Under the pieces are notes generated by a model, which worked only from the letters and a program-made list of their open reading frames with translations, did not search any database and was not told where the DNA came from. From NCBI RefSeq assembly GCF_025947365.1, contig NZ_CP110012.1, positions 3,844,001-3,908,000 of the forward strand: 64,000 bases of DNA, written 5' to 3'. Positions 2,742-45,789 of this stretch are shown piece after piece (position 1 is the first letter of the stretch; each line of letters begins with the position of its first letter). This stretch comes from Flavobacterium sp. N502540. GTDB taxonomy: Bacteria; Bacteroidota; Bacteroidia; Flavobacteriales; Flavobacteriaceae. A program made the position numbers and the translations under genes.

Positions 2742-3379
2742 ATTCTATACAGATCATAAAAGATTAGGATGGAATTTTTGTCGCAACGTTTTATGCGTCT
2801 ATAATAAGCATTTATGTTTTTTTCTTTAATGAAAGTAGAATAGAAAATGTTTTTGTAGTAGAAAAATAGCACTTCACTAGAATTACATCACCTTTACTGA
2901 TTTTAATTGGCATAAAAACTTAGGGATTTTGGAAAAAAAGGGGTGTCATATTTTTGGTACTTAGGAAGTTTTTTTTGAAAAGGTAGGCGATTTCAAAATT
3001 GATTTTTGTAAAGAAAAAGTCAACAAAAAATGGCAACGTAATTCTGGAAGTTGCTGCAATAATGGAACAATATTTTAGACGAGTTCACAAAAAGATCTTG
3101 TTTGATATTCTAACTTGTTATAATTAATATCGGTTTTGGTACTTATAAAATTTCAAAAATGATATTCAATCACTATTGAGTGCGAAAAAATATTGAGGTT
3201 TAAAATTGTTTTAATTTTATTTTTATAATGGATTACCTGCATAAATACTATTCACCGACACTTTTTTTCCAGTTGTCTACACTTTGTTATGATTTGACGA
3301 AAAAGAATCTTTACTCTTACGTTAATGAAATACATTTGAAATTGAATAAGTATGCATTAAAATTTAAATAATAAGAAAA
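2742..3379. other. Long intergenic region, no gene seen
   Basis: About 640 bp of AT-rich sequence lies between the GAF kinase and the response regulator. All frames are broken by stops, and no transposase, tRNA or strong hairpin was recognised. It presumably carries the promoter of the response regulator and may include decayed sequence. Confidence 0.4.
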
Positions 3380-3793
3380 ATGGCAAAATCATTAAATATA
3401 CTATTAATAGAAGATGATGTAATTGAAGTGATGAAATTCAATAGAGTGCTAAAAAGTTTAGAACTCAATCATCGAATCATCGAAGCAGATAATGGTGAGG
3501 AAGCGGTTAATGTATTGAAAATGAAAGAAATAATTCCGGATATTATTGTTTTAGACCTCAATATGCCTAAATTAAACGGAATCGAGTTTTTGACTATCTT
3601 AAAAGCGGATGATGTGTTAAAATACATACCAGCAATTATCTTAACGACTTCTAACAATCATAGGGATGTTATGGAGTGTTATAAAATAGGTATTGCGGGC
3701 TATGTTTTAAAACCACTTAAATATGAGGATTATGTAGATAGAATAAAAAAACTACTTGATTATTGGAGTACAAATGAATTAATTTCGCAGTAA
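3380..3793 (+). CDS. CheY-like single-domain response regulator (Rcp1 type)
   Basis: The 137 residues form a single receiver domain with no output domain. The acidic pair is D12/D13, the phospho-acceptor D59 sits in IIVLDLNMP, the switch threonines are T89/T90, and the conserved lysine is K111 in VLKPL. Single-domain regulators of this Rcp1 subtype usually take phosphate from PAS/GAF kinases and act by protein-protein contact or as a phosphate shuttle. Both neighbouring kinases are candidate partners. A small relay protein between several kinases and the HPt protein at 9241 is possible but is inference only. Confidence 0.9.
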   Translation: MAKSLNILLIEDDVIEVMKFNRVLKSLELNHRIIEADNGEEAVNVLKMKEIIPDIIVLDLNMPKLNGIEFLTILKADDVLKYIPAIILTTSNNHRDVMECYKIGIAGYVLKPLKYEDYVDRIKKLLDYWSTNELISQ

Positions 3794-4064
3794 AAAAATA
3801 TCACGATTTTTTAAATTTAGTCTTATAGAAAAAAAAATAACGTTTTTTGTTAATCTGCTTTTTTTTAATTGAAAACGATTTGAAATTTAAATATTTAATA
3901 TTTTAATAAAAATAGCACTCCTGAAGTACAATTCTGGTAAAAACGAGTAATTAGAATTTGAGGTCGTTTTAGTAGTTGGCTTAGCTGTTTTCTGGTGTTA
4001 AAAACATTCCAAATAGGATAGTGTTGCGAGGATTAGATTATGTACAAATAAAATTTTAAAATTA

Positions 4065-4072
4065 AAGGAGGT
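4065..4072 (+). promoter_or_regulatory. Full Shine-Dalgarno sequence before the HNOBA/PAS kinase
   Basis: AAGGAGGT sits 6 bases before the ATG at 4079. Flavobacteria generally make little use of Shine-Dalgarno pairing, so a complete anti-SD match stands out and supports this start codon. Confidence 0.7.
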
Positions 4073-4078
4073 AGAGGT

Positions 4079-7075
4079 ATGGAAAATTCTCAATTTCATT
4101 TTGATAGTGAGACATTCAATAGGTTTTTCCCTTTTTATGTTCTGCTCGATCAAAACTTACTTATCCAAGATAGAGGTAGAAGTTTAATCAAAATTCTTCC
4201 TGACTTAAAAAGCAATGACTATTTTTTGTATTCATTTGCCATCACCAAACCATTTTTGGAAGAGCTAAACAGTGACAACTTTTATAAGATCACAAATCAA
4301 TTGGTCATAATCAAATCACTCAGGAATGAAATCTTGCTCCGAGGGCAATTTGAAAAATATGGTAATGGCTATTTGTTTTTAGGCAGTAATTGGCTTACTT
4401 CTGATAAAAATTTTGAAGAAAAAAAACTCTCTCTTTATGATTTTGCTCAGCACGATGCATCATTAGATTTATTTGATTTAATGTACAATCGTGATAAGTC
4501 TGATGCCGCATTACAAAAGTCTTTGACTATAATACATCACGAGGAAAATGAATTAAAAGTGGACAATAAGGAAATTGATGATAGAGAACTATTTCCTACT
4601 CAAAATCAGGATCTATTAATTCGGATTGATTTTGAGGGGCATTTATTAAAAATGAATCCAGCAACTCAGAATTTAAAAAGACTTACATACCATGGAATTA
4701 ATTATGAAATTAAGGATTTTTTCAAGTTCATCGTCCATAAAATAGATAAAACAAAAAAAAGATGGATGTTTGAAGCGGAGAGTAATGGTAAGTGTTACTC
4801 CTTTGTTTGTAAAAGTATGCAGGAACAGTACTATGTGAAGATCTATGGACGTGATATTACAGAACAAAAAAGAAATCATGAGGAGCTAAATAAGCTGTCC
4901 ATGGTAGCAAAAACAAATAAAAATGGCATTTTATTTACATATCCGGATGGAAAGATATTTTGGTGTAATGATGCTTATCTTAAATTGACAGGATATGAGA
5001 AAGATGAAATTATTGGTAAAACACCTTTAGAGGTAGGTTCAGATCCTTTATCGGATAAAGAGGAAATCCGTAGAATGATCAGTGCTTTTTACGATGGAAA
5101 TGCTTTTGAGGTAGAAATTTTGCATGCTAGAAAAAATGGAAGTACTTTTTGGTCTAAAACGGTCGGACAGCCCATTCTAGATCCCTCCAAAAAAGTGATT
5201 CAATATTTTGCAATGATTGAGGATATTTCAGAAGTCAAGCAAAAAGAAGAACAACTTTTATTACTGTCCTCGATAGCTGATAAAAATATAAGTGCAGTCA
5301 TTATTTGTGACAAGTCAGGTAAAATAGAGTGGATCAATAGTAGTTTTACCAAAATGACTGGTTATTCTAAGGAAGAATTGATTGGTCAGAGTCCAGGTCA
5401 TTTATTGCAAGGAGAAGCAACTAATCCAGACACCATTACCTATTTAAAAAATCAAATAAAACAAGGACTTCCTTTCACTTGTGAAATCTTAAATTATACA
5501 AAATTTAAAGAAAAATATTGGGTTAGAGTGCAGGGACAGGCACTGCATAACAAACACGGAGAAGTGATTAAGTATTTTGCTATTGAAGAAAATATAAGTC
5601 AGGAAAAAGAATTCAATCAACAGCTTATAGATTCTGAGAATCGTTTGACTTCGTTAATTACCAATCTTCAATCTGGTATTTTATTAGAAGATGAGGATAG
5701 AAAGGTTCTAATTGCCAATAAACGCTTTTGTGATTTATTTGATTTTAAAGGAGAACCAGAAGAGATGATAGGTTTTGATTCAAAAATGGCCACTGAGGAA
5801 AATAAATACTTTTTTAAAAGACCAGATGAGTTTATTGAAAGAGTTGAAGAAATTTTAAGAAACAAAAAAAATGTATTTTCTGAAGAAATTGAACTGGCCG
5901 ATGGACGCGTGTATGAAAGAAGCTTTATTACTATATCTAAAGGGAACAAAAATGACGGTCATTTATGGAGCTTTGAAGACATTACAATTAAAAAAAAGTA
6001 TAAAGAAAGCCTGGAAGCAGAAAAAGAAAAATATCGAAATATTATTGCCAATATGAATATGGGTTTATTGGAAGTAGATAAGGATGATATAATACAATTG
6101 GCTAATCAGTGCTTTTGTGATATGAGCGGTTTTTCTTTGATTGATTTGTTAGGCAACAAAGCATCTGAAATTTTGCTGCATCCTGAAGATAAAAAATTAG
6201 TTACTTTTAAAAATAAAGAGCGTATTAATGGGAAGTCAGATTCTTATGAAGTAGCCTCTATTAATAAGAAAGGAGAAACAAGGCATTGGCTAATTAGTGG
6301 TGCGCCCAATTACAATGTCAATGGTGAAGTAATTGGTTCAATAGGAATACATCTAGACATAACTAAACAAAAAAACCTGGAATTACAAAAAGAGGAGTTG
6401 CTTAAAAAATTAGAAAAACAGAATGAGCAGCTCAATGATTATGCTCAAATTGTATCACATGATTTAAAGTCACCGCTGCAAAGTATACATTCTCTGGTTA
6501 CATGGATCAAAGAGGACAGTGATAAAGAGTTTAATGCACAAACAGTTAAATATCTCAATATGATAGAAGACAAAGTGGAGAAAATGGATCATTTGATTGA
6601 AGGAATTCTAACATATTCTAAAGTAGATGATATAGAAATGATTACTGAAAGCATCAATTTGAATCTTGAAATAAGTAAAATAATTGATATTATTCATATA
6701 CCAAAAAACATTCAGGTTTTGGTAAAAAATGAACTGCCAACAATTAAGGCAGAACGATTTAGAATGCAACAATTGTTTTTAAATATTATAAGCAACGCGG
6801 TAAATTATATTGACAAGCCTCTGGGAATTATTGAAATAAGTTGGGAAGAGGAAAAAAAGTACTATGTTTTTGCAATTAAAGACAATGGACCCGGTATTGC
6901 TCTGAAGAATCAGGAAAAAATTTTTAAAATGTTTCAATCTTTTAGTTCTAATAAAAGATCAACAGGTATTGGATTGTCTATTGTAAAAAAAATAGTCAAA
7001 AATTACAACGGAAAAATTTGGATTGAAAGTGAACTTACTAAAGGTACAACCTTCTTTATTAAATTACCAAAATAG
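4079..7075 (+). CDS. HNOBA-like multi-PAS sensor histidine kinase
   Basis: The first 135 residues match the heme-NO-binding-associated (HNOBA) fold of guanylate cyclases and bacterial NO-signalling proteins: NRFFPFYVLLDQNL near residue 14, then LLRGQF, LFLGS, and the hallmark HDASLDLFDL near residue 125. About five PAS-type domains follow (roughly 180-260, 273-392, 395-515, 517-640, 645-765), then HisKA with H794 in VSHDLKSPL and HATPase with DNGPGI and GIGLSIVKKI. There are no transmembrane segments, so it is a cytoplasmic sensor. No H-NOX gene is visible in the window. Five bases separate it from the FIST gene, so the two are co-transcribed. Ligands are unknown; the HNOBA match is by motif recognition only. 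Confidence 0.85.
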   Translation: MENSQFHFDSETFNRFFPFYVLLDQNLLIQDRGRSLIKILPDLKSNDYFLYSFAITKPFLEELNSDNFYKITNQLVIIKSLRNEILLRGQFEKYGNGYLFLGSNWLTSDKNFEEKKLSLYDFAQHDASLDLFDLMYNRDKSDAALQKSLTIIHHEENELKVDNKEIDDRELFPTQNQDLLIRIDFEGHLLKMNPATQNLKRLTYHGINYEIKDFFKFIVHKIDKTKKRWMFEAESNGKCYSFVCKSMQEQYYVKIYGRDITEQKRNHEELNKLSMVAKTNKNGILFTYPDGKIFWCNDAYLKLTGYEKDEIIGKTPLEVGSDPLSDKEEIRRMISAFYDGNAFEVEILHARKNGSTFWSKTVGQPILDPSKKVIQYFAMIEDISEVKQKEEQLLLLSSIADKNISAVIICDKSGKIEWINSSFTKMTGYSKEELIGQSPGHLLQGEATNPDTITYLKNQIKQGLPFTCEILNYTKFKEKYWVRVQGQALHNKHGEVIKYFAIEENISQEKEFNQQLIDSENRLTSLITNLQSGILLEDEDRKVLIANKRFCDLFDFKGEPEEMIGFDSKMATEENKYFFKRPDEFIERVEEILRNKKNVFSEEIELADGRVYERSFITISKGNKNDGHLWSFEDITIKKKYKESLEAEKEKYRNIIANMNMGLLEVDKDDIIQLANQCFCDMSGFSLIDLLGNKASEILLHPEDKKLVTFKNKERINGKSDSYEVASINKKGETRHWLISGAPNYNVNGEVIGSIGIHLDITKQKNLELQKEELLKKLEKQNEQLNDYAQIVSHDLKSPLQSIHSLVTWIKEDSDKEFNAQTVKYLNMIEDKVEKMDHLIEGILTYSKVDDIEMITESINLNLEISKIIDIIHIPKNIQVLVKNELPTIKAERFRMQQLFLNIISNAVNYIDKPLGIIEISWEEEKKYYVFAIKDNGPGIALKNQEKIFKMFQSFSSNKRSTGIGLSIVKKIVKNYNGKIWIESELTKGTTFFIKLPK

Positions 7076-7080
7076 AAACT

Positions 7081-8214
7081 ATGAAAATAATTCAAGCGTA
7101 TAAAAAAAAGAATAAAAATTGGGAGTATCTGAAAAAGGAAGGGGAATTAAAAAATCCACTTGTACTTGTTTTCGGAAACAGAATGCAATTAGAACGTCTG
7201 GAAGTCATTGAAGCGATTAGAAAGGAGTTTCCTTACGAACATCTGGTATTTGGTTCTACAGCAGGCGAAATTATCGATGCAAATGTATTTGATGATTCTA
7301 TCGTAGTTACTGCTATAGAGTTTGAAAAAAGCAGCTTTGAAATTAGAACGGATAATATTTTTAATTACAAAAAAAATGCGAATACTTTAGGGGATTCTCT
7401 TTATCAACAGATACCGAAAAAAAATTTAAAGCATTTATTTGTACTTTCAGAAGGAAGTTTCGTAAACGGAAGTTCGCTTATTGAGGGGTTTGAAAATTGT
7501 ATTCAAAATAAAGTTTCTATCTCGGGCGGTATGTGTGGAGATGACGCGAAATTTGAGAAAACGTTGGCTTCTTACAAAGAAAATCCAAAAGAAGGAGAAG
7601 TTGTTTTAATTGGATTTTATGGCGAGACTTTAGAAATTTCGTTTTCGAGTTTTGGAGGATGGAGCTCTTTTGGTCCCGAAAGAATTATTACCCGATCAGA
7701 AGCCAATGTATTGTATGAGATAGATGGACAACCTGCTTTGGATTTGTATAAAAAATACTTAGGAGACAAAGCCAATCAGTTGCCGCAAGCTTCTTTGTTG
7801 TACCCTTTAAACGTTACTCCTGAAGGCAAATTGCAAGCTGTTGTTCGTACCATTTTAAATATTAATAATGATGATCAGTCCATGATTTTAGCTGGAGATG
7901 CGCCCGAGAATGCCAAAGTACAGCTCATGATGGCTTCAGTAGATGCTATCGCAGAGGGAGCATCTCAAGCGGCCATTTTAGCAATGAAAAATAGAAAGAA
8001 TCACCCACAACTTGCTTTACTAGTAAGTTGTGTGGGAAGAAAATTAGTTATGAATCAAAGGGTTGAAGAGGAAATAGAGCACGTTCAGGAAATAATAGGA
8101 AATAAAGTAGCGATTACTGGGTTTTACTCTTATGGCGAAATGGCTCCATTTAGCGATAATACTTTTTGCGAGTTGCATAACCAAACAATGACTTTAACTC
8201 TAATCAGTGAATAA
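7081..8214 (+). CDS. FIST domain sensor protein (NosP-like)
   Basis: The 377 residues cover a FIST_N domain (about 25-205, including FGSTAGEI and SISGGMCGDD) and a FIST_C domain (about 215-370), ending in the conserved GFYSYGEMAPF and ELHNQTMTLTL motifs. FIST proteins are soluble ligand sensors. In Pseudomonas and other Proteobacteria the FIST protein NosP binds heme, senses nitric oxide and controls a co-encoded histidine kinase. Here the FIST stop overlaps the kinase start (TAATG), the same arrangement. The histidine in ELHNQT is a conserved residue worth testing, but heme binding cannot be read from sequence. Confidence 0.9.
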   Translation: MKIIQAYKKKNKNWEYLKKEGELKNPLVLVFGNRMQLERLEVIEAIRKEFPYEHLVFGSTAGEIIDANVFDDSIVVTAIEFEKSSFEIRTDNIFNYKKNANTLGDSLYQQIPKKNLKHLFVLSEGSFVNGSSLIEGFENCIQNKVSISGGMCGDDAKFEKTLASYKENPKEGEVVLIGFYGETLEISFSSFGGWSSFGPERIITRSEANVLYEIDGQPALDLYKKYLGDKANQLPQASLLYPLNVTPEGKLQAVVRTILNINNDDQSMILAGDAPENAKVQLMMASVDAIAEGASQAAILAMKNRKNHPQLALLVSCVGRKLVMNQRVEEEIEHVQEIIGNKVAITGFYSYGEMAPFSDNTFCELHNQTMTLTLISE

Positions 8215-9254
8215 TGAATACGCTACTAAAAAGGCAAATTGTCAAATTTATAAACCCTGAGCATTTAAAAGATTTAAAGTATTTTTTGCAGGCAGTCAAT
8301 GAATCTTATGATAATCATGAGGATCAGATGAGTATGTTTCAACGTGCGATGAAAATTAGTTCCGATGAGCTTTTTGAAGCCAATAAAAAACTGCGAGAGG
8401 AAGCTAATAGTTTAAAAGAAATAAATTCAAATTTGACAGAGATTTTAAATTCTATGAATTTGGATGCCGAAAAATTGGGTAATGAAAAAGATTTTAATCA
8501 GTCTGATTTCTTAAAAAAGCAATCCATAGAAATTGTGGCAATGAACAAGCAAAGAGAAGAATTGTTGTTAAGTTTAGAGAACCAAAATAGAGAACTTAAC
8601 GAGTATGCTCATGTAGTTTCTCACGATTTAAAAGCGCCACTCAGGAATATAGATACTCTTATTAATTGGGTTCTTGAGGATAATAAAGACCTAATGAGGC
8701 AAAGTTGTTTAAGTTCGCTTAATCAGGTATTACTTAATGTGGAAAAAATGGATTTGCTCATCAAAGGAATTTTAGATTATTCTACTGTAGACAAAGTAGA
8801 ATCAGAAGAAAGGTTAATTGACTTTAATCTGGTGATTGACGAAATTAAGAGAGAAATTCATACTCCGAAAAATATTAAAATTTCAATAATTAATGATTTA
8901 CCAAAAATAAAGGGAAATAGCTGGCGATTCAAGCAATTAATGCAAAATTTAATTGAAAATAGTATTCACTATAACAATAAGGCTCAAGGTCAAATTGAAA
9001 TTGGCTGTACAGAAAAAGAGCAGGATTTTGAATTTTATATCAAAGACAATGGGGTAGGGATTGCTGAAAAATACCACGGCAAAATTTTTAAAATATTCAC
9101 GAAATTAGAAAATAACAATCAAAATTCAGGAGTAGGGCTTTCTATAGTTAACAAAATTATAGAGTACTATAAAGGTTCGATCCGGCTTGAAAGTAAAGAA
9201 AACATTGGAACAACATTTTATTTTACCTTACCTAAAAACTATGGAGGAGCCTAA
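8214..9254 (+). CDS. FIST-associated sensor histidine kinase
   Basis: The protein is a 346-residue soluble kinase. Residues about 20-120 are a predicted coiled coil with no recognised sensor domain, so input probably comes from the FIST protein encoded just upstream. HisKA contains H137 in VSHDLKAPLRN. HATPase has N-box MQNLIENSIHYN, G1 DNGVGIAEKY and G2 GVGLSIVNKI. The catalytic half resembles that of the large PAS kinase two genes upstream, suggesting duplication. Its stop overlaps the HPt start by 14 bp, which points to translational coupling and to HPt as the next step in a phosphorelay. Confidence 0.9.
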   Translation: MNTLLKRQIVKFINPEHLKDLKYFLQAVNESYDNHEDQMSMFQRAMKISSDELFEANKKLREEANSLKEINSNLTEILNSMNLDAEKLGNEKDFNQSDFLKKQSIEIVAMNKQREELLLSLENQNRELNEYAHVVSHDLKAPLRNIDTLINWVLEDNKDLMRQSCLSSLNQVLLNVEKMDLLIKGILDYSTVDKVESEERLIDFNLVIDEIKREIHTPKNIKISIINDLPKIKGNSWRFKQLMQNLIENSIHYNNKAQGQIEIGCTEKEQDFEFYIKDNGVGIAEKYHGKIFKIFTKLENNNQNSGVGLSIVNKIIEYYKGSIRLESKENIGTTFYFTLPKNYGGA

Positions 9255-9561
9255 TTTAAATTATATTGACCAACTTTGTGCAGAAGACGATGAGTTTAAG
9301 CAAAAAATTATTACTATTATTAAAAAAGAACTTCCGCTTGAAATAACCGCATACTATAAAAGTATCGAAAGCAAGAATTACAAACTTGCCTCAGAGGTTA
9401 TTCATAAATTAAAACATAAAATATCTATTTTAGGTCTTGAAAAAAGCTACGATCTTGCACAAGAATATGAAAATCATTTATTAAAAAATGGCACATTTGA
9501 ATCTGAAGGTGAATTTGCACGTATTTTACAGTTAATGCAAAGTTTTGTAAACGACTTGTAA
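9241..9561 (+). CDS. HPt domain phosphotransfer protein
   Basis: The frame is open from 9187, but the ATG at 9241 gives a 106-residue protein that fits a stand-alone HPt domain and overlaps the kinase gene by 14 bp. The helical motif VIHKLKHKISILGLEKSY matches the HPt signature, with H55 as the likely phosphorylated histidine; the usual lysine and glycine around it are kept. An HPt directly after a FIST/kinase pair parallels the NosP-NahK-HptB path. The receiver fused to a glycosyltransferase, encoded convergently 200 bp away, is the nearest possible recipient. Confidence 0.8.
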   Translation: MEEPNLNYIDQLCAEDDEFKQKIITIIKKELPLEITAYYKSIESKNYKLASEVIHKLKHKISILGLEKSYDLAQEYENHLLKNGTFESEGEFARILQLMQSFVNDL

Positions 9562-9708
9562 AAAAACATAGTTTTCTAATGGTATATTTATTATTAGCGG
9601 TTAAATAAATAGATGTATTATTATACCTTGCATTCTTATATATATATTATGTAAAAAAACATGATAAAAAATAATCTTTAACTGTTTGTAATTAACACAT
9701 TTCTCTAA

Positions 9709-9744
9709 TAAAAAAAACTCAAAGCAAGTTTTTTTTGACTTGCT
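9709..9744 (-). terminator. Rho-independent terminator of the REC-glycosyltransferase operon
   Basis: On the minus strand a 7-bp stem (AGCAAGT/ACTTGCT) with an A-rich loop is followed within a few bases by a T-run (plus-strand A-run at 9711-9717). It lies just past the stop at 9770, between two convergent operons. Confidence 0.5.
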
Positions 9745-9769
9745 CTATATAGTATTGGTTGTAGTTTTT

Positions 9770-10951
9770 TTACCTGTAATGGAGTGCAATCTGGCCAATT
9801 TGCCCCATAATTTTTACTGAATCTTTAAATGATAATTTAGAACCATCCATATGAATCCATCTATTTAAAGGTTTCTCTAAAATTAATTCCTGAGTTTTTG
9901 CAGAACCATATATTTTTTTCATTCTCATGAAAATCTCTACATCAAAAATCCATTTTGTTACAAATTTTTCACTAAAAGTTTTTTCTATAATTTCTTTTGT
10001 CATTATTTTGGCTCCACATTGTGTATCATTAATTTTCATTCCAAGAATCTTTATGATAATATAATTTATGGTTTTACTGATCAGTACTCTTGCAGATTGT
10101 TTGGTAATGTCAGCTCCCATTCTTGAAATTCTCGAACCAAAAACTAATTTGTATTTAGAGTTATAGATAGTATCTGCCAAATCTTGAAAATCATCAAAAT
10201 TGGTAGACAAATCGGCATCTAAAAAACCGATATAATCAAATTGATTTTGCTTAGCTAAGTGTAACATTCCGAGGCGAACAGCTTCAGCTTTTCCACCATT
10301 TTTTATGCAATCATATACACTAATATATTCTTCTTTCCCTTTTGTTAATTCATTTAAAACTGCTAATGTATTGTCTTTACTTCCGTCGTTCACAAAACAC
10401 AAATGGTATCCTAAATTTTTATGTACAAAAGACTTAAATTCATCACTAGACAAACGGGTTTCTTCGTTATAGCACGGAATAACAACTCCAATACATTTGT
10501 TTTGGATATATCGCTCTTTCGAATTGGTTTTTTCTGTAACACTTTTTTCAATAGTAGAGCCAATTAACCTTTTTACTCTTGCGCCAATTTCGCTTAAACT
10601 CAAAGGCTTCTTCATGTAGTCATCAATGCCTAAATCAAAAGCTTTTATAATGACTTCTTCATCAGTATTACCAGATAGTACCATTACAGGTGTGCCGTCT
10701 TTTTTGATTTGCTTGATATATTTGACGACCTCCAAACCAGATCCACTTTCGTTCAAAGATTCCGCATTAGAAAGGTTAGACATATTAATGTCAACAATAA
10801 TTAAATTTGGTTTTTCACTGTCATATCTTGCAATGGCATCCATTATATTGTCTGCACTGATAACTTCATATCCTGAACTGCTTAGTAATTTTTCTAAAGA
10901 CAACAAAACCAATTGCTGATCATCTACTATTAGTATTTTCATAATATTCAA
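9770..10951 (-). CDS. Response regulator receiver fused to family 2 glycosyltransferase
   Basis: Residues 1-130 are a receiver domain: acidic pair D10/D11, phospho-acceptor D54 in IIVDINM, S93, and K115 in MKKPL. After a short linker, residues 150-393 form a GT-A glycosyltransferase of the DPM1/ALG5/GtrB group, with VVIPCYNEE, FVNDGSKDNT, the metal-binding D245-A-D247 and the DTQCGAK motif typical of polyprenyl-phosphate sugar synthases. No membrane anchor is seen. The fusion suggests that phosphorylation directly gates the transferase rather than transcription. It is the last gene of a three-gene minus-strand operon (7 bp after the GT4 gene). The polyprenyl-phosphate sugar it may make would suit the GT-C protein encoded divergently at 13918. 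Confidence 0.88.
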   Translation of the reverse strand: MNIMKILIVDDQQLVLLSLEKLLSSSGYEVISADNIMDAIARYDSEKPNLIIVDINMSNLSNAESLNESGSGLEVVKYIKQIKKDGTPVMVLSGNTDEEVIIKAFDLGIDDYMKKPLSLSEIGARVKRLIGSTIEKSVTEKTNSKERYIQNKCIGVVIPCYNEETRLSSDEFKSFVHKNLGYHLCFVNDGSKDNTLAVLNELTKGKEEYISVYDCIKNGGKAEAVRLGMLHLAKQNQFDYIGFLDADLSTNFDDFQDLADTIYNSKYKLVFGSRISRMGADITKQSARVLISKTINYIIIKILGMKINDTQCGAKIMTKEIIEKTFSEKFVTKWIFDVEIFMRMKKIYGSAKTQELILEKPLNRWIHMDGSKLSFKDSVKIMGQIGQIALHYR

Positions 10952-10958
10952 TTTAAGT

Positions 10959-12125
10959 TTATTGTATTGATTTGAAACATTCTATATACATCATTATAAT
11001 TTTATCCATTGAATGGGCACTCGCAGCCTGAAAATTCGCAATAGCTAATTCTTTTCTATAGGCATCGTTTGAAATAATTTTTTCGATGGCTACAGCTAAA
11101 GATTCTGCACTTTCGGGATTAAAAAATTCTCCTTTATACCCTTCATCTTTAATTAGCAAGGCCAAATCGCCCAAGTCAGGCATGATAACTGCTTTGCCAT
11201 AGCTGCCCGCTTGGTGCAACACTCCAGAACTACCAGTAGTAGATGTATAAGGGAAAACCACAATTGTACTATCAGTAAAGATTCTTTCTACATCATTTTC
11301 ATCAACATATCCGGTAAAAATAATTCCTTCAACATTTTTATATTTTTCTTGTAACGCCTCTAAATATCCAGCTGTGTTTGGACTATTTGTTCCAGCAATC
11401 ACTACCTCTAATTTTTCTGGATTTGTTTTTCGAACAATTTCAACTGCTTCAATTAAAATTTCAACTTTTTTATAAGTTCCAAATTTTCCAAATGCCATAA
11501 TTTGTTTGGGTCCGGATTTAATTTCAAAATTTGGATTTTTGACCGATTCGAATGTTCCATGTGGTATTAGTATTACATTTTGGCTATGGTATTTAACATT
11601 TAAAACATCCACATATTTATGAATAGTTACAGCAACTCTATTGGCTTTCAAAATGCATCTGGTAATGTTAGTTCCAATAAAATTATAAATCTTCTGCATG
11701 GATTTATTTTCTGTGAATCCCGCTTTTTTCAGATCAACCTGTTCTAATATATTGTGCAATAAAACCACTGTTTTATATCCAAAAAATCTCAAAATCATAG
11801 GTAACAATAATCCCAAGGCAGAAGGTATTTTTTTATCTCCAAATTTTACAAACTGAAGATTAAATAAAATTACATCTGGTTGTTCTTGTCGAACTGCATT
11901 AAGAATAGAAAAAATAGTGGTGTAACTGTTAAATCTCCAACATTCTTTAACTTTAACTTTTTCTTTTTGGTCAAAGTCTAATTGTTTCGCTTCAAGTGTT
12001 TTATCCGATAATAAAATTAATTCGGCTATTTCTGAGTTGTGAACAAAGTTTTTTACCAAATGATAACCATATTCATTTAGTGTAACTTTACTTGGTGGAA
12101 ATGCAGTGACTAGAGCTACTTTCAT
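10959..12125 (-). CDS. Glycosyltransferase family 4
   Basis: This 388-residue protein has the GT-B layout of GT4 enzymes. The N-terminal half contains VALVTAFPPS and LLHN. The C-terminal donor-binding half contains MAFGKFGTYKKVEILIEAV, then IIFTGYVDENDVERIF, and TGSSGVLHQAGSYGKAVI, where the usual E-x7-E motif is degenerate: the first Glu position is Ser/Gly. It is likely cytoplasmic and adds a sugar to a lipid-linked glycan. It sits 12 bp after the flippase gene and 7 bp before the REC-glycosyltransferase gene. Substrate is unknown; the degenerate motif leaves activity slightly uncertain. Confidence 0.85.
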   Translation of the reverse strand: MKVALVTAFPPSKVTLNEYGYHLVKNFVHNSEIAELILLSDKTLEAKQLDFDQKEKVKVKECWRFNSYTTIFSILNAVRQEQPDVILFNLQFVKFGDKKIPSALGLLLPMILRFFGYKTVVLLHNILEQVDLKKAGFTENKSMQKIYNFIGTNITRCILKANRVAVTIHKYVDVLNVKYHSQNVILIPHGTFESVKNPNFEIKSGPKQIMAFGKFGTYKKVEILIEAVEIVRKTNPEKLEVVIAGTNSPNTAGYLEALQEKYKNVEGIIFTGYVDENDVERIFTDSTIVVFPYTSTTGSSGVLHQAGSYGKAVIMPDLGDLALLIKDEGYKGEFFNPESAESLAVAIEKIISNDAYRKELAIANFQAASAHSMDKIIMMYIECFKSIQ

Positions 12126-12137
12126 GTTTTAAAAATG

Positions 12138-13376
12138 TTACTTTTTATTGTTATTAAAAAAGAAAAAAAACAGTTGAAATAATAATAATGCTGTCATCGC
12201 GATGATTTGCATAACAACGATCTGTTCGATTGAATTATGATAGAGGACGATCAGAATTATTTGTGTAAGCCCCAGAAAGGCTGATATTATAACAGGTACA
12301 TACTTATTTATAGAAAGAAAATAGTAAGTAAAAATATTTGCAATGGCAAAAATTGAAGTAGCCAATGCATATTTCCAAAGCAAGAAAGCAATGGGTAGGT
12401 ATTTCTTGCCAAACATCAATTGCACTACAATTTCGGGAAATAAGAGTGTACCTAAAACAATTATAGTAGACAAGCAAACAATATATAAAACATATTTTAA
12501 CAGAATTGGAAGTGTATCTTCTCCTTTTTTTTTTAAATGTATTACTTTAGGTAAAAGGAGCATTACAAACATCCAGGCAACAAAATATACAACCCGGCCT
12601 ATTAATGCTAAAGAAGCATATAAGCCCGCTTTTTCATTATCAAAATAATGTTTAACCAACATAATATCACTATTGTTAATGATAATTTGCGTTAATTCAT
12701 AGAAGGCTGTTAGAGCAAAAAATGTAATAATGGATTTTTTATCTAAATTATTACTTAGAGTTTTGTTGTTTTTGCAGTAAATTATTTTTTGAAAAGGAAT
12801 CAAACCAAAGGCAAAAGAAATTAAAATTCCTAGTGAGATAATAATAGAAGATTGGATTTGAGGTAAAAAGTAGAGCAACAAAAGTGTCACAATCAAACGA
12901 CATAACATCTCAAAGTAGTAAGTTTTTGACAAATTTCTCAGATCATTTTTTCCCTGGTATAAACCTCTATTAATACTCATTATAAAATAGATTGGAAGTC
13001 CCAAACCAAACAAAATGAACATTAATGAGGTTTTGGTTTTAAAAATTTCCTGTAATTGAGTACTGAATACGGCTACTATACATCCTAGTATTACACCGAA
13101 TAACATTGCATACTTAAAAATAAATTTTAAAAAGAAATGCGATTGAGTTACTGAGAGTAAAACGGTATATTTAGTAGCAGTAACCTGAAATGTAATTCCA
13201 ATAAAAGATAATACTAAGAGCAAAGTTATTAAGATTGCAGCATCAGCAAATCCAGAAGGTCCAAGTATTCTTCCTAATAGCAGATTGTACAAATAATTGC
13301 CTGCATTTACAAATAAAATTGTAAGCATGAAAAAATTCTCCGCAGTGATCTTTCTATATGTAGTTTTAATATTCAA
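12138..13376 (-). CDS. Polysaccharide flippase (MOP/Wzx-like membrane protein)
   Basis: The 412-residue, strongly hydrophobic protein has about twelve predicted membrane spans and the polysaccharide-biosynthesis/MOP layout, starting with NAGNYLYNLLLGRILGPSGF near residue 24. That G-R-x-L-G-P-xx-F turn is typical of Wzx- and PelG-type exporters. It probably moves a lipid-linked glycan or a growing chain across the inner membrane. It is the first gene of the minus-strand operon and shares a 540-bp divergent promoter region with the plus-strand glycan operon. Wzx, PelG and teichoic-acid-type flippases cannot be told apart here. Confidence 0.85.
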   Translation of the reverse strand: MNIKTTYRKITAENFFMLTILFVNAGNYLYNLLLGRILGPSGFADAAILITLLLVLSFIGITFQVTATKYTVLLSVTQSHFFLKFIFKYAMLFGVILGCIVAVFSTQLQEIFKTKTSLMFILFGLGLPIYFIMSINRGLYQGKNDLRNLSKTYYFEMLCRLIVTLLLLYFLPQIQSSIIISLGILISFAFGLIPFQKIIYCKNNKTLSNNLDKKSIITFFALTAFYELTQIIINNSDIMLVKHYFDNEKAGLYASLALIGRVVYFVAWMFVMLLLPKVIHLKKKGEDTLPILLKYVLYIVCLSTIIVLGTLLFPEIVVQLMFGKKYLPIAFLLWKYALATSIFAIANIFTYYFLSINKYVPVIISAFLGLTQIILIVLYHNSIEQIVVMQIIAMTALLLFQLFFFFFNNNKK

Positions 13377-13917
13377 TTCAAGTGTATTGTAATAAATAAT
13401 AAAAATAATATTTTAAAGGGCTGATTCTTACAAACAAATATAATAAAAATAAGAAAATTTTAACAAGAGTAACAAAGAAATTTATTAGGATAAATTCCCT
13501 CTTTTTAACAATTAACTAAATCAACATATTTATTATGAATTGTAATTTTGAAATTTAACTGTAATTTAAATCAATGCCAAGACATAGATTTAAACAAACA
13601 AGGTTATGTAATGCTGTCTTTTTCTAAACCTAAAGCCAATTTGAAAACCTATTAAAAAAAAACTTCAACTTTATTTGATATAATTTATTGAATTATATTT
13701 TTATAAAATAATATCACAGTAAATGTTCTCATTCTGTTAATAATTACCTTTAGATCATTATTCTGATATAATATTGGTGCTTTTGTATGTTTTTTTTTGA
13801 TATTTTAGATGTTTGTAAGTATTTCTTTTGATGAAAGGATATCTGTACAGTTATATTGTTTTCTTCTATAGAGCGATATCGATGTATTTACAAAACAATA
13901 ATCTAAAATAAAAGCGA
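13377..13917. other. Divergent promoter region of the two glycan operons
   Basis: About 540 bp of AT-rich DNA separates the minus-strand flippase operon from the plus-strand GT-C operon. No coding potential or clear hairpin is seen. It must hold both promoters; I could not assign a convincing TTG-N19-TAnnTTTG pair in either direction. Confidence 0.5.
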
Positions 13918-16900
13918 TTGAGAGAGACTTCTAATAAATATTTGATAGTAGCCTTACTTTTTGGATTAACTTTCCATGGCAGCGCTATTTTTTTTACTTT
14001 GGAAAGTACTTACGACGCTTTAATTCATATTTTTTTCGGAAATCATTATGCCCACAGTTGGTTTGAACCTTGGAATTATAGTTGGTATACGGGTTTTAAT
14101 GTGATGAGTTACCCTCCATTAGTACATCAGGTCATTGGATTACTTTCTTTAATTGGAGGTTTGAAATTTGGTATGTTTACTGTGGCTATTGTTGGAATTA
14201 TTTTATTCATTACAGGAGCTTTTAGATTTTCACTTTTAATAAGTGGAAATCGAGCTGTTGCAGGTTATTCAGCTATTCTGGCAGTTGTTTCTTCTTCTTT
14301 TATTGAAACATTGCATATTTTTGGACAGTTACCCAGTATTATTGGAATTTCCGTTTTGATGCATGCACTTCCAGAGATTTATCTTTTTATTAAAACAGGA
14401 AAAAAAAAATATTACTTCACATCTCTGTCTTTGATGGCTGTAACTGTTTGTTCGCATCATGTTACACCTTTATTCGGGATGGTGTTTTTCGTTTTGCCTT
14501 TAATCGGAATGATAGTAATGGATACCGCTCGTGGAAATGTCAATTCCTTTAAGCAAATCACTTTCAAAATATTCTGCAAAACATTTCTGTCACTATTAAA
14601 ACGTATTATTCTTTTCTGTGGTAGTGCCGTTTTTCTGTTGGTATTTTGTATACTGCCTTATTGGATTAATTCTAAAGCCAATCCCATTACTCAGGTTCCT
14701 ATTCCGCATGGGAGTCGTGATAATTTTATAGAAGTAACCTCATCCGGGTTGATGTTCTTCTTAATACCTTGGGGAATATTACTTTTTATATTGCCTTATA
14801 TATTTTATAGATATTACAGTAAAAGGTATATTTTTTTCGGGTTATCCTTAACCTTGCTAACTGTTTTAGGAACTGGTGGCACAACTCCAATTCCGTTAGC
14901 AATTTTAGGAAAAAATGCTTTTAATATCCTAACCTTAGATCGCTTTACACTTTGGGCTTCTATAATGAGTTTGCCTTTTTTTGGTGAGTTTGTTTACCGA
15001 TTAGTTGAAGGTGACTTAAGAACGGCTTTGCAAGTAAAATTTGGCAGTGTTTATCGCAGAATTATAGGTGGATTATTTGCCGGTTGCTTTTTGTTTTTTG
15101 CTGTTTTTACTATGACTTTAGGGTATTTTAGACCCTTTCAGCCACAAAAAATTAACTTTTTGCCAATTGTCAATTTCTTAAATCAGGATCAGCACGATCA
15201 CTGGAGGTTTTTGCCATTAGGTTTTGGTGATCAGATGGCCTACTTGTCGACACAAACAAAGGCAATGACGGTTGATGGAAATTACCATTCGGCAAGAAGA
15301 TTACCAGAATTGACTTCTCGTGCAGTAGAACGGTTGGAAAACTCCAAATTCAGGGGACTTGAAGGTATTGGTTCATTGCAGCAATTTCTAACTGTTCCTG
15401 AAAAATACAATTTGAAATATGTTTTTTCTAACGATAAATTCTACGATCCAATACTCTATTTCTGCGGTTGGCATCGATTATCACAATTAGAAAATGGTAT
15501 TATGGTATGGGAAAAACTAAATGTGCATCCATTGTCTAAAATTCTTCCAAAAGATGATGTACCAATCTATTTGAAATTGATGTGGGGAGTTATTCCAATG
15601 TTAACCATTCTTGTGGCTTTTATGCTTAATGTTCAGATGATTTGGCTTCAGGCCTTAAAAATAAAGCCTTTAGAAAAACCTTCTTTCAATAAGTTTGGAA
15701 TTATTTATGCTAATTTTCCAACACCGATGGTAAAATTTCTACACGTTTGGACAGTAATTTTACTTCTAATTATAAGTTTTGGAGTATATCGAATTTACAT
15801 TAAGAATGCTACGCAGATTAGTCCAGAAAATGTTGTAAAAGCATATTATGATGCTTTAGATTTTAAGTTTTACGATAAGGCACACTCTTATGTCGTTCCT
15901 AATAAAGAATACTCGGTGGCTCAGTTTATGCTGGAAATTTCTGTTTCTGATGGAGTTCTTAATTCTTACGCGAAGTTAGATGCTATCGAAACTAAAATTA
16001 TCCAGCAAAATAAAGACAAAGCCCGAGTAAGCGCTGTAACCAAATGGGTTACACCATTAGAACTTATTGAAAAAAAGTACATACATGATGTTCAGAAAAT
16101 AAAAGGGAAATGGTTTATTATTCGGGATAAAAAAGATAGCGATATTCCTCCGGACGAATTTATTTCAGACAATGTTAATTCGTATTACAAGCAAGGGAGA
16201 CGAGAGATTACTACCCAACAGACCTATCATGAAGATGTGTTGCGCCAACCAGATTTAGAAATTGTATCGGCAAGTTTGGTAAAAATTAATAATCAATATA
16301 TCGTAATTGGTGAAGTTCAAAATATAGATAATGTTCCTGCAGATGTGGTCTTGAAAGCTACTTTGTATGATAAAGATTATAAATCAATTGCCGTATTTAA
16401 CGCTAAGTATACTATTAAACATAAGTTAATGCCAAAAGAGGTCACAAGTTTTAAGGTGAATTTTGAAGATATTGCGTGGTTAAAGCCAACTGATGTAAAA
16501 CCAACTACTTTTAACCCTGATGAATTTACGCCAAAGGAATTGAAAAATATTCCCACAACATTTGATATTCAAAGTGCTGGAAATGTGGCAACCACCGACT
16601 TGTATAATTCGGTTGCTATTTCAGATTTACTGATAGATGATAACCAAATCAAAGGAACTTTATTCAATTACGGAATTCAGGAAGTAACCATCCCTGAGCT
16701 TTTAATTTCGTATTACAATGACAGAAAAGAATTAGTTTATGTTGATCATCAGTTTATAAAAGAGGGAGTTCGCATTCAGCGTAAGCAATATTTTGCGTAT
16801 AAATTGCCTAAGGATTTGAAGCCTTGTATCATAAAATCTTCTACAGAAAATTGTTTTGTAAATGGTTTAAAATCAAAAGATCTTGGACGTGTTATAATTC

Positions 16901-17010
16901 CAGTACGAAATAGCAGACAAGAAAGTGCACAAATGCAAAAAGTTAAAGGACATAGAGGGTATTCGTTTATTAAAATTGAAATCAATAATTACATTGGAAA
17001 TCCTAGATAA
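13918..17010 (+). CDS. GT-C-like membrane protein with periplasmic NTF2-like and FxLYD-like regions
   Basis: The start is a TTG: an in-frame stop lies three codons upstream and no ATG is near. The first ~420 residues hold about ten membrane spans, with the loop STYDALIHIFFGNHYAHSWF that resembles the acidic first periplasmic loop of GT-C transferases and proteins annotated as 6-pyruvoyl-tetrahydropterin-synthase-related membrane proteins. A lumenal segment follows, then two spans (about 560-585 and 615-640). The C-terminal ~380 residues contain an NTF2-like region (about 640-745) and FxLYD-like beta domains. It may transfer sugars from a polyprenyl-phosphate donor in the periplasm. Its stop overlaps the next start by one base (TAATG). 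Confidence 0.7.
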   Translation: MRETSNKYLIVALLFGLTFHGSAIFFTLESTYDALIHIFFGNHYAHSWFEPWNYSWYTGFNVMSYPPLVHQVIGLLSLIGGLKFGMFTVAIVGIILFITGAFRFSLLISGNRAVAGYSAILAVVSSSFIETLHIFGQLPSIIGISVLMHALPEIYLFIKTGKKKYYFTSLSLMAVTVCSHHVTPLFGMVFFVLPLIGMIVMDTARGNVNSFKQITFKIFCKTFLSLLKRIILFCGSAVFLLVFCILPYWINSKANPITQVPIPHGSRDNFIEVTSSGLMFFLIPWGILLFILPYIFYRYYSKRYIFFGLSLTLLTVLGTGGTTPIPLAILGKNAFNILTLDRFTLWASIMSLPFFGEFVYRLVEGDLRTALQVKFGSVYRRIIGGLFAGCFLFFAVFTMTLGYFRPFQPQKINFLPIVNFLNQDQHDHWRFLPLGFGDQMAYLSTQTKAMTVDGNYHSARRLPELTSRAVERLENSKFRGLEGIGSLQQFLTVPEKYNLKYVFSNDKFYDPILYFCGWHRLSQLENGIMVWEKLNVHPLSKILPKDDVPIYLKLMWGVIPMLTILVAFMLNVQMIWLQALKIKPLEKPSFNKFGIIYANFPTPMVKFLHVWTVILLLIISFGVYRIYIKNATQISPENVVKAYYDALDFKFYDKAHSYVVPNKEYSVAQFMLEISVSDGVLNSYAKLDAIETKIIQQNKDKARVSAVTKWVTPLELIEKKYIHDVQKIKGKWFIIRDKKDSDIPPDEFISDNVNSYYKQGRREITTQQTYHEDVLRQPDLEIVSASLVKINNQYIVIGEVQNIDNVPADVVLKATLYDKDYKSIAVFNAKYTIKHKLMPKEVTSFKVNFEDIAWLKPTDVKPTTFNPDEFTPKELKNIPTTFDIQSAGNVATTDLYNSVAISDLLIDDNQIKGTLFNYGIQEVTIPELLISYYNDRKELVYVDHQFIKEGVRIQRKQYFAYKLPKDLKPCIIKSSTENCFVNGLKSKDLGRVIIPVRNSRQESAQMQKVKGHRGYSFIKIEINNYIGNPR

Positions 17011-18239
17011 TGAAGTATAAAATATCTATATTTAGTTTTTGTTTGTTTACTATATTATTGGTCTCAGTCACTTTAATGCCTAAAAAGCAAACAGGTACTA
17101 TTGTATTAATTACACAGCAAAAGACCTTTATAGCGGGTGACAAAATAATTTTAGATTTTAAGGGAAATTCGTCAAATAAACCGAAGTTATTTCTAATTCA
17201 TTCTTTAGGAAAAACACTTTTAGATGGTACGATAAAAAATGATAAATTGACTTTTATCCTTCCTAGAATTTATGCTGAAAAAGCAGGCCATATTGATTGG
17301 TTTTTGGCAGTAAACGGAGAAAATAAACTACATGGAAATTTTGAAATTTTGCCCAACAACGGTACCAAAACCAATATCGAAAATTATTTAGGTCCACCAA
17401 GTACGTTAGTAGGGGATGATCATTTTGTAATGTACGTTACGATTCCTACTGATGACTTTGATAATCCAAAACCTGAAAATACTCTCGTAATTTTTAGAAG
17501 TCAGTTTTTGAATGCAATTACAACTCAAACAGTAAAAACGAAAGACCTTATTGCTTGGAAAATAATTAAGGCCCCTACAAAATCTGGAATCGTTTTGGTT
17601 TCTGCTCAATGTAATGCCACAATTACTAAAGAATTTGACGCTGTAATTTTTGCTGGAATTGCTACAAATTTTATGATTTCATTTATTAGAAATCATCAAT
17701 TTGCAGATGGAAATCAAATTACTACCTTAAAAACCACTATCATTAAAGATAAATTTGGTAATGTTGTAAGCGACGGAACGATGGTGTCATTTATAATTTC
17801 TACCACTGGCGGTATGGTTTTAAAATCATTTGGCACAACAATAAACGGAATTGCAACTGCTCAGATTTTGCATCCTGATCACCAGGATGTTTATACCGTA
17901 AAAGCTTATGTAGCGGGAATAGCAGAAAGTAATTCTATAGCAATTAACTATATGCCGATCAATCCAAAAATTGAATTTGGATTTTCAAAAGATAATCGTA
18001 CTATAATAGTCGGTCCATTGCGTAGTTTTATGAATCAGTTAGTTCCAGATGGAATTAAAGTGAGTCTAAAAGTATATCATCATAATCAACTCATAGCGAC
18101 TTTGCAAGAAGATAGTGAAAAAGGTTATGCCGTTTTTACTATTTCATCTGAATACTATAAAGAAAAAAAATATTCATTTGAAATTTCAACCTTAGGAAGC
18201 AGTGAAAAAGTAGAAGAAAAAAAATATGATAGTAATTAA
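17010..18239 (+). CDS. Secreted or membrane-anchored protein with Big-1/invasin-like Ig domain
   Basis: The 409 residues start with one hydrophobic segment (about 4-24) and continue as beta-rich periplasmic sequence. Residues about 225-315 match the bacterial Ig-like Big-1 pattern (IIKDKFGNVVSDGTMVSFI, later GIATAQILHP). No catalytic motif is recognised. It is translationally coupled at both ends: 1 bp overlap with the GT-C gene and 14 bp with the hydrolase gene. The position suggests a structural or scaffold subunit of the glycan assembly machine. The function is not known. Confidence 0.75.
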   Translation: MKYKISIFSFCLFTILLVSVTLMPKKQTGTIVLITQQKTFIAGDKIILDFKGNSSNKPKLFLIHSLGKTLLDGTIKNDKLTFILPRIYAEKAGHIDWFLAVNGENKLHGNFEILPNNGTKTNIENYLGPPSTLVGDDHFVMYVTIPTDDFDNPKPENTLVIFRSQFLNAITTQTVKTKDLIAWKIIKAPTKSGIVLVSAQCNATITKEFDAVIFAGIATNFMISFIRNHQFADGNQITTLKTTIIKDKFGNVVSDGTMVSFIISTTGGMVLKSFGTTINGIATAQILHPDHQDVYTVKAYVAGIAESNSIAINYMPINPKIEFGFSKDNRTIIVGPLRSFMNQLVPDGIKVSLKVYHHNQLIATLQEDSEKGYAVFTISSEYYKEKKYSFEISTLGSSEKVEEKKYDSN

Positions 18240-19960: not shown

Positions 19961-19978
19961 TTTTTTTTTTTTTTTTTT
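19961..19978 (+). repeat. Poly-T tract of 18 bases upstream of the TPR/barrel gene
   Basis: Eighteen uninterrupted T bases end 79 bp before the ATG at 20058. Homopolymers of this length are prone to slippage and, within a promoter region, can cause phase-variable expression. Confidence 0.8.
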
Positions 19979-20057
19979 ATTGATATGCAGTTTATTGTGG
20001 ACGAATAATCAATGTTTATACTTAACTTGCAGTTAATTACAAATTATATGTTATAAA

Positions 20058-40152: not shown

Positions 40153-41742
<1,590 letters not shown>

Positions 41743-41862
41743 ATCTTTTGTTTTAAAAACAAGTAAGATATTCTTTGCAAACATGGCTTTTTGAGGTGGT
41801 CACTTTGAACCGGAGTCAATTGATCTCTTTTACCGGAATAGGGTGGTCACTTTTACCAGAAT

Positions 41863-42850: not shown

Positions 42851-43113
42851 TTCCAAATCATCAAGATGTTTGATGTAGAATTTTTTGCAGTCTGTATAGT
42901 AGATAAATTAGGAAATCATACCGCTGATACATCCTGCATTTTGTAAATCTTCTATAAAGGATTTTAGTTTTTCTTTTTTTGGTTTCGCTGTATGATTCCA
43001 AGTTGGAAAGGATTATTTTATTGAAAGCTTGACAAAGGTCAAACTCGGCGTATATTGATTTTTCAAAGGCTTTCGTAACTGATTTTTTTAAGGTTTATGC
43101 ATTTAATGTTTTA

Positions 43114-43503: not shown

Positions 43504-43583
43504 GATTTTAAATTTTAGTGATTACTATTGTTTAAAATTTCTTTCTCCCTGTACTCCCAAAAATTGTTTTCAAAAGAAATTGT

Positions 43584-43659
43584 CATGATATAAAAAAAAC
43601 GCAAGCGCAAACAGCCATGAAAATGGGGTACCGTAACTTTATGGTAAATTTTATATCAT
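43584..43659 (+). ncRNA. Structured left-flank segment of IS110, possible guide (bridge) RNA
   Basis: A perfect 12-bp inverted repeat, CATGATATAAAA (43584-43595) and TTTTATATCATG (43648-43659), encloses a smaller hairpin (TACCGTAA with TTATGGTA). IS110-family transposases use a non-coding RNA from an element end as a bispecific guide. This segment is a candidate part of that RNA, but it overlaps the proposed transposase start, so it could equally be a regulatory hairpin. Confidence 0.3.
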
Positions 43660-45273: not shown

Positions 45274-45277
45274 CAGT

Positions 45278-45788: not shown

Positions 45789-45789
45789 G

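Follow-up and report, generated by a model that had tools for sequence, protein, structure and literature searches.

A probable phosphorelay with predicted gas sensors and a LytTR regulator linked to a surface-polysaccharide cluster in Flavobacterium sp. N502540 and other Flavobacteriaceae

Phosphorelays of the Spo0F/Spo0B type consist of four parts, namely a non-hybrid kinase, a single receiver, a His transfer protein and a DNA-binding regulator, and in receiver-enzyme response regulators, a receiver is coupled to an enzyme. In Pseudomonas aeruginosa, a FIST protein, a soluble kinase and a histidine phosphotransfer (HPt) protein make up the NosP/NahK/HptB system. Legionella possesses a NosP/NahK/NarR system, which has been reviewed together with the NosP and H-NOX pathways leading to cyclic di-GMP (c-di-GMP) (PMC8846402). 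FIST genes near hnox have been noted in a genome-neighbourhood network (PMC8738867), and the H-NOX/NosP pathways covered by the reviews come nearly all from proteobacteria, with c-di-GMP as their usual end point (PMC8738867, PMC8846402). The nearest precedent for the system discussed here is that of Vibrio fischeri, where H-NOX, acting via HahK on the HPt of SypF, controls the syp polysaccharide genes (PMC8738867). In this work, we describe a sensor-kinase operon containing FIST and HPt genes, together with its neighbouring polysaccharide cluster, in a 64,000-nucleotide stretch of the genome of Flavobacterium sp. N502540 (contig NZ_CP110012.1, positions 3,844,001 to 3,908,000; “the window”). 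The locus probably represents a Flavobacteriaceae type of phosphorelay in which a LytTR response regulator governs a surface-polysaccharide cluster. No description of the locus was found in the literature searched, from which subscription papers were mostly excluded.

Flavobacteria carry a compact signalling operon that appears to act as a relay and that, as a rule, includes one or two probable nitric oxide (NO) sensors. In the relatives of the window, the usual gene order is REC1-(H-NOX)-HK-(FIST-HK)-HPt-LytTR, where REC1 is a single-domain receiver and HK a histidine kinase. In 55 of the 61 HPt loci mapped, LytTR is the next gene downstream of HPt, with a median coordinate gap of 11 bp, and in 58 of the 61, REC1 is found on the HPt strand within 9 kb; among the “named loci”, which are the best 80 of 567, LytTR directly follows HPt in 70. 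Within the genus, the commonest neighbourhood comprises REC1, a 180-residue protein, the PAS kinase, FIST, a kinase, HPt and LytTR on one strand, with the 180-residue protein being an H-NOX (PF07700, 8.5e-50; three family-level ones, 1.5e-38 to 4.7e-38). The polysaccharide cluster lies beyond LytTR in nine genus loci (G124, G113, G036, G047, G040, G141, G019, G029 and G048) and on the REC1 side in G085; in G142 and G129, the gene of a receiver-glycosyltransferase fusion (REC-GT) alone follows LytTR. In Kordia algicida OT-1 (L251), REC1, H-NOX, kinase, FIST, kinase, HPt and LytTR are consecutive, followed beyond LytTR by DUF4114, TPR, STAS, flippase-like and glycosyltransferase genes with two others interspersed.

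Genes of the window were called as open reading frames (ORFs) and their domains with Pfam, including NCBIfam scans for some proteins (Table 1). The tight packing of HNOBA/PAS kinase, FIST, kinase and HPt, on which the original prediction for this DNA had been built, was borne out, with FIST starting 5 bp past the end of the PAS kinase, the second kinase (HK2) overlapping FIST by 1 bp, and HPt, counted from its ATG, overlapping HK2 by 14 bp. The PAS kinase contains HNOBA (PF07701, 37.0 bits; cut-off 23.4) in addition to PAS, HisKA and HATPase domains, and the stand-alone FIST protein matches FIST (PF08495, 145.2 bits) and FIST_C (PF10442, 120.2 bits). HK2 has a HATPase domain (79.7 bits) and a HisKA match below threshold (21.2 vs. 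a cut-off of 26.9); likewise, the window HPt scores 21.2 bits, under the Pfam cut-off of 24.6, which its orthologue L066:594-911 passes with 32.9 bits. In alignments of proteins picked by identity and length, the phosphosites previously singled out are conserved, i.e., H137 of HK2 in 29/29, the His of HPt in 61/61 and D54 of REC-GT in 42/42 proteins, the receiver of the latter being intact throughout (D10, D11 and K115 in 42/42; S93 in 41/42); D59 of REC1 is conserved in 59/59. Neither kinase of the operon contains a receiver domain and, thus, an HPt relay would need a separate receiver. REC1, which is encoded on the operon strand 285 bp upstream of the PAS kinase, would be the obvious candidate for the missing Asp step. 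The gene set of a multistep phosphorelay (non-hybrid kinase, free receiver, HPt and terminal regulator) is hence encoded together, with the regulator, LytTR, lying 12.6 kb away from HPt in the window. Among the operon and cluster proteins of the window, to which this search was confined, no GGDEF or EAL domain was detected, and no Rfam family was found in window 1-24000.

The separation of LytTR from HPt sets the window apart from most relatives. The six HPt genes out of 61 that are without LytTR beside them are those of the window, G103, G052, G102 and G054, and one of two in G185. Relative to G124, the order in the window corresponds to a single inversion of the block from LytTR to REC-GT, plus the absence of H-NOX, which suggests that one inversion separated LytTR from HPt. 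In G102, G054 and Flavobacterium cheongpyeongense (L223), HPt and LytTR are convergent with no polysaccharide genes between them. ORF and Pfam scans confirm that REC-GT is convergent with HPt and ends 208 bp from the HPt stop. The original observation is right in terms of position; it is incomplete in leaving out the same-strand REC1 as well as LytTR. Synteny did not uphold the pairing: of all loci mapped, only those of the window and of its sisters G103 and G052 have HPt and REC-GT at most 600 bp apart. Since this closeness is confined to the window clade, the adjacency is a derived order, and it was ruled out as evidence of a partnership. A separate arrangement was seen in L101 (G185): of its two HPt copies, the first is close to the FIST operon and the second has LytTR 14 kb away; the other genes around this second HPt we take to be sugar-nucleotide genes.

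Co-occurrence was assessed in a genus sample of 199 Flavobacterium genomes and a family sample of 299 Flavobacteriaceae genomes from 236 genera. In the genus sample, all 19 genomes with a REC-GT match that has 54% identity or more and extends over 328 residues or more also contain close FIST and LytTR orthologues, the totals of which are 27/199 (E 6.6e-138 or better) and 50/199, respectively; some of the genus matches are fragments, e.g., in G149 and G052. In the family sample, REC-GT is present in 62 genomes (match starting at residue 1-4; including G311 and G315 at 36-41% identity, and G304 and G260 cut at a contig end), close FIST in 56 and LytTR in 114, with 13 genomes containing weaker FIST matches alone being left out of the counts. 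LytTR occurs in 61 of the 62 REC-GT genomes (Fisher 2e-30), at a distance of up to 30 kb in 49 of the 61; close FIST occurs in 39 of the 62 (Fisher 9e-20), within that distance in 34 of the 39. All 56 close-FIST genomes have LytTR (Fisher 6e-29), 50 of them within 30 kb; because Fisher tests ignore relatedness, these P values are too small. In the 50 near pairs, the distance between FIST and LytTR is 2.1-2.5 kb in 48 cases, 3.7 kb in one and 15.1 kb in the window. For 16 REC-GT loci without close FIST beside them, the far side was mapped, and H-NOX was found beside kinase-HPt-LytTR in 12. In G216, kinase-HPt-LytTR is present without H-NOX or REC1, and likewise in G321 as mapped, where a 5377-residue ORF fills the upstream space; the mapped stretches of G414 (LytTR 31 kb off, outside the stretch) and G298 (operon elsewhere) contain no operon.

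The link to transcription comes from the promoters of the relatives. Unsupervised promoter sampling yielded one and the same tandem element before the TPR gene as well as, on the opposite strand, before REC1; it reads roughly GTGTAGACGAATGG twice, 21 bp apart. The repeat was first seen in the TPR set; a matrix was then trained on 60 REC1 promoters alone, 54 of which reach the threshold of 12 bits, with dinucleotide shuffles serving as control. This REC1 matrix detects sites in 23/26 TPR (shuffles 1/260), 13/18 STAS (0/180) and 15/16 DUF4114 promoters (0/160), in 19/34 promoters of the gene for a 1030-residue protein of the cluster (2/340; 15 without a site) and in 19/41 REC-GT promoters (0/410), the latter often representing the shared divergent region; LytTR genes lack it (0/60 vs. 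1/600). Patterns with a 22-bp period matched only 0-4 promoters per set and were discarded, the period being 21 bp. Gibbs runs on the promoters of the 1030-residue protein gene were also set aside, with many rows locked on the apparent REC-GT coding start next door. A pooled matrix, built from 127 promoters with the window clade left out, was applied to 75 named loci after removal of the 5 of 80 known to overlap with training, the other loci possibly including close relatives. In these held-out loci, the repeat was found in 63/65 REC1, 25/34 TPR, 23/32 STAS and 29/32 DUF4114 promoters, and rarely or never in those of HPt (2/67), FIST (3/32), the PAS kinase (0/46) and LytTR (0/75); shuffles reached at least 12 bits in 0-2 cases per set of 155-375, and STAS and TPR promoters can share one region. 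In the 80 named loci, repeat matches amount to 1.85 per kb outside vs. 0.017 inside ORFs.

On the genome scale, the mean number of pattern matches is 3.56 in the 114 family genomes with LytTR vs. 0.57 in the 185 without, and 3.38 in the 81 LytTR-containing genomes outside training; at least two matches occur in 97/114 vs. 24/185 genomes. Among the matches listed, 16/18 without mismatch and 26/38 with one mismatch lie at most 30 kb from LytTR. LytTR sites are described as a pair of repeats, direct or inverse, each 9-11 nt long and separated by 11-13 nt (PMC4847170). The 21-bp period fits this spacing, although the block that is conserved seems to exceed 11 nt slightly. LytTR is the sole protein with a DNA-binding domain found among the scanned conserved genes of the locus and, hence, the likely binder of the repeat. 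The notion that the relay operates without a transcription factor is thus not supported, with LytTR normally following HPt and the LytTR-type repeat preceding both the operon and the polysaccharide genes in relatives. In the window itself, the pooled matrix gives 28.7 bits at 3243 and 18.1 bits at 3264 upstream of REC1, with 0/1000 shuffles of this promoter reaching 28.7 bits. The site upstream of the window TPR gene is exceeded or equalled by 0/1000 promoter shuffles, but a shuffled window would be expected to contain 0.2 such matches; the corresponding position of sister G103 scores 30.7 bits.

In the proposed mechanism, gas or heme sensors (H-NOX, absent in the window genome, and/or FIST) would tune one or two non-hybrid kinases, and phosphate would pass from the kinase His via the Asp of REC1 and the His of HPt to the Asp of LytTR. 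LytTR would then bind the tandem direct repeat upstream of REC1, resulting in autoregulation, and the repeat upstream of the polysaccharide genes, resulting in transcriptional control of the cluster; REC-GT may form a secondary, enzymatic branch that receives its phosphate from this HPt as well. Gene content and order, the conserved phosphosites, the derived order of the window clade and the repeat shared by held-out promoters were observed directly; the order of phosphotransfer, LytTR as the binder of the repeat, NO as the signal and the sign of regulation are what we infer here. A GAF histidine kinase encoded just upstream of REC1 (1440-2741), close relatives of which are likewise found in G103, G052, G102, G054 and L223, is a possible further input in this clade.

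The 61 mapped HPt loci include 44 with H-NOX, 30 with FIST and 22 with both, so that 52 have at least one of them; in the named loci, the numbers are 55, 34 and 30, respectively. The proximal His of H-NOX is conserved in 46/46 aligned proteins, and the Kordia algicida H-NOX (L251:4957-5493) shares all 179 of its residues with PDB chain 6bdd, a protein used as Kordia H-NOX in PMC7356049. PDB 6bdd/6bde are deposited under an aldolase name, yet match the full-length H-NOX of L251. In FIST, H118, C317 and H366 are invariant in 30/30 aligned proteins and are candidate heme/NO ligands, with no solved structure among the sequence relatives of FIST at E<=0.01. The kinases of G230, G216 and G106 gave no HNOBA match at E<=0.001. 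An H-NOX remnant was sought in the 285-bp gap between REC1 and the kinase and rejected, the best match in 1-24000 (E 0.028) lying outside the gap. For loci with H-NOX, NO as the predicted signal is well grounded, while for FIST alone, it is suggested only by family resemblance. There is some, limited chance that the signal is a different heme-linked or redox cue, or heme itself. FIST of Vibrio CdpA is reported to sense heme, and oxidants may likewise elicit a response from H-NOX (PMC8846402, PMC8738867), and the window genome is without H-NOX; the conserved proximal His in the H-NOX proteins of relatives argues for NO. Apart from this system, a distant FIST group (39-46% identity; 19 loci, L106 to L124) has a different context, mostly beside multi-PAS kinases and, in L106, together with a single receiver and a regulator of the receiver/sigma-54-activator kind, constituting another FIST system in the genus.

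Several observations weigh against the LytTR-mediated relay as outlined above, or limit its reach. Flippase-like promoters are mostly without the repeat (REC1 matrix, 10/38 vs. shuffles 0/380; pooled matrix, 2/31), and 5/114 LytTR-containing genomes have no pattern match at all. A reversed-pattern control is itself unequal between genomes with and without LytTR (0.88 vs. 0.49, P 0.0006), implying that part of the difference between them is background, and since the repeat tracks the whole locus, its co-occurrence with LytTR is no proof that LytTR is the binder. REC-GT and LytTR are more than 30 kb apart in 12/61 genomes, in nine of these on different contigs, and 9/61 HPt loci have neither H-NOX nor FIST by the identity thresholds used. 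In the window, the box upstream of REC1 is the only strong one; that of the TPR gene is weak (13.9 bits), and no repeat precedes the gene for the 1030-residue protein (1.1 bits vs. 18.7 in sister G103). The 5.4-Mb genome has two pattern matches, i.e., the REC1 site and one other, and the reversed control also gives two. Given these weak or absent cluster boxes and the equal control, transcriptional control of the cluster is less certain here than in relatives. Furthermore, PF07700 has no match in the window genome and FIST scores 67.3 bits against the NosP equivalog model NF041558 (cut-off 450), so that NO sensing in this genome is suggested by family resemblance.

These reservations have to be seen against the competing explanations. 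The original prediction was that HPt phosphorylates REC-GT directly, gating glycan synthesis post-translationally with no transcription factor involved. The intact receiver residues, the proximity of REC-GT to FIST and LytTR in the family sample, and the small number of HPt-type domains in the window genome (four matches at E<=0.05) are compatible with this; phosphotransfer from HPt to REC-GT would be suggested by linkage and the intact receiver. However, the usual direct neighbour of HPt is LytTR, its adjacency to REC-GT is restricted to three sister genomes, and the LytTR-type repeat lies before the polysaccharide genes in relatives. In addition, 17 family genomes, all with LytTR, have a glycosyltransferase match without receiver (G445 also has REC-GT), situated at most 30 kb from LytTR in 11 of them; in G439, the one such locus mapped, this glycosyltransferase belongs to the same cluster, from which it follows that the receiver is not required for the cluster glycosyltransferase. 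Taken together, we consider the direct route highly improbable. What stands of the prediction, which is thereby supported in part, is the genetic linkage between NO-type sensing and glycan synthesis across Flavobacteriaceae, evident from the sensor-bearing majority of HPt loci and the near FIST/REC-GT and LytTR/REC-GT pairs.

A branched relay, with HPt feeding both LytTR (transcription) and REC-GT (enzyme activity), may be entertained tentatively. Linkage and the intact receiver of REC-GT are in line with it, as are the REC-GT genes adjoining LytTR in G142 and G129 and, in G029, an additional REC-GT that accompanies an additional LytTR; yet, other kinases could serve REC-GT, and the genome (single contig, 5.41 Mb) encodes many receivers. 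Rather doubtful is the full dual-output version, according to which H-NOX and FIST would converge on one free receiver and one HPt, leading to transcription through LytTR and to direct switching of REC-GT; if true, a single surface glycan would be under both slow and fast control. Alternatively, REC1, the GAF kinase and REC-GT could belong to separate pathways, with the FIST operon and the polysaccharide cluster simply travelling together on one island. Joint transfer can give linkage, and the operon is also found without the polysaccharide cluster; nonetheless, we judge this unlikely, considering that the same repeat is found ahead of operon and cluster alike in held-out loci from many genera and that the linkage of operon and cluster persists through local rearrangements. 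The relay with LytTR as its main output is the interpretation we favour.

The polysaccharide cluster of the window spans both strands between HPt and LytTR (Table 1). REC-GT matches a receiver (81.7 bits) and a GT2 glycosyltransferase domain (70.7 bits), and its start is likely the ATG at 10942. Terminator-like hairpins such as the one between HPt and REC-GT are not above the shuffled expectation (1 found vs. 4.6 expected in 3000-14000). The TPR protein is presumably of the outer-membrane type. In relatives, a DUF4114 protein is often encoded beside LytTR (L076:2480-4912, L251:11945-14398 and others), with a type IX secretion system sorting tail in L076.

Table 1. Features of the relay operon and the polysaccharide cluster in the window, in positional order.
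Feature	Position	Strand	Basis and remarks
Candidate LytTR box upstream of REC1	3243-3303	.	Pooled matrix; overlapping tandem direct repeats, 21-bp period
REC1, single-domain receiver	3380-3793	+	PF00072, 78.5 bits; proposed intermediate Asp step
HNOBA/multi-PAS histidine kinase	4079-7075	+	ORF and Pfam; without receiver domain
FIST/FIST_C sensor protein	7081-8214	+	ORF and Pfam; distant relative of NosP
HK2, soluble histidine kinase, H137	8214-9254	+	ORF and Pfam; without receiver domain
HPt protein, H55	9241-9561 (from ATG)	+	Pfam, orthologue score, conserved His
Terminator-like hairpin, putative end of REC-GT transcript	9720-9747	-	Consensus match only; between HPt and REC-GT
REC-GT2, receiver fused to GT2 glycosyltransferase	9770-10951	-	Pfam
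Group-1 glycosyltransferase	10959-12125	-	Pfam
Membrane protein, flippase-like	12138-13376	-	Length and context only; no Pfam/NCBIfam match
1030-residue membrane-type protein	13918-17010	+	No Pfam/NCBIfam match
Ig-like (Invasin_D3) protein	17010-18239	+	Domain scan
GH5-like glycoside hydrolase	18226-19779	+	Domain scan
Weak candidate LytTR box upstream of TPR gene	19974-20013	.	13.9 bits
TPR protein	20058-22136	+	TPR models
LytTR response regulator, proposed main output	22184-22891	-	PF00072, 73.3 bits; PF04397, 69.4 bits

Further features were observed in the remainder of the window. A 4124-residue predicted protein (23702-36076) contains near-perfect tandem arrays of 243 bp x 11 (98% matches) and 300 bp x 25 (99%), and is followed by two genes which we take to resemble PorP/OmpA family members. 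Several transposase-like ORFs, some of them short, lie in 40489-50622, suggesting a stretch rich in insertion sequences. Within it, a helix-turn-helix protein is encoded next to an AbiEii nucleotidyltransferase (45278-46440), possibly representing a type IV toxin-antitoxin pair. The region 51357-58413 contains Type VI secretion-type genes, comprising TssD/Hcp, VgrG-like, a Tle1-like phospholipase domain protein and DUF4280.

With this locus, a large environmental family appears to wire both sensor types to polysaccharide genes through LytTR, and the predicted DNA site is directly testable. If true, the H-NOX proteins of Flavobacteriaceae, that of Kordia algicida (6bdd) among them, would gain a role in regulation. 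The control of a glycosyltransferase by a receiver becomes a concrete experimental question; REC-GT resembles the receiver-enzyme regulators in its build and differs from them in its output, a GT2 glycosyltransferase, for which no described case was found in the literature searched. With the Spo0F/Spo0B relays, the locus shares the four-step parts, the transfer protein, however, being an HPt and the sensors H-NOX and/or FIST. The REC-LytTR architecture and the predicted repeat-type sites are reminiscent of YpdB and other LytTR regulators as described in PMC4847170, whereas here an HPt relay rather than a LytS kinase would be the feed, and the repeat sequence differs. A stand-alone FIST protein beside a soluble kinase is also typical of the NosP/NahK systems, with the HPt being common to the Pseudomonas case; in contrast to these, the output here is LytTR instead of a c-di-GMP enzyme, and FIST is far from the NosP model. 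As in Vibrio fischeri, a kinase tuned by H-NOX, an HPt step and exopolysaccharide genes under transcriptional control would be combined; what distinguishes the flavobacterial locus are the separate REC1 and HPt proteins, LytTR, FIST as a second or sole sensor, and the linkage of the operon to its target cluster.

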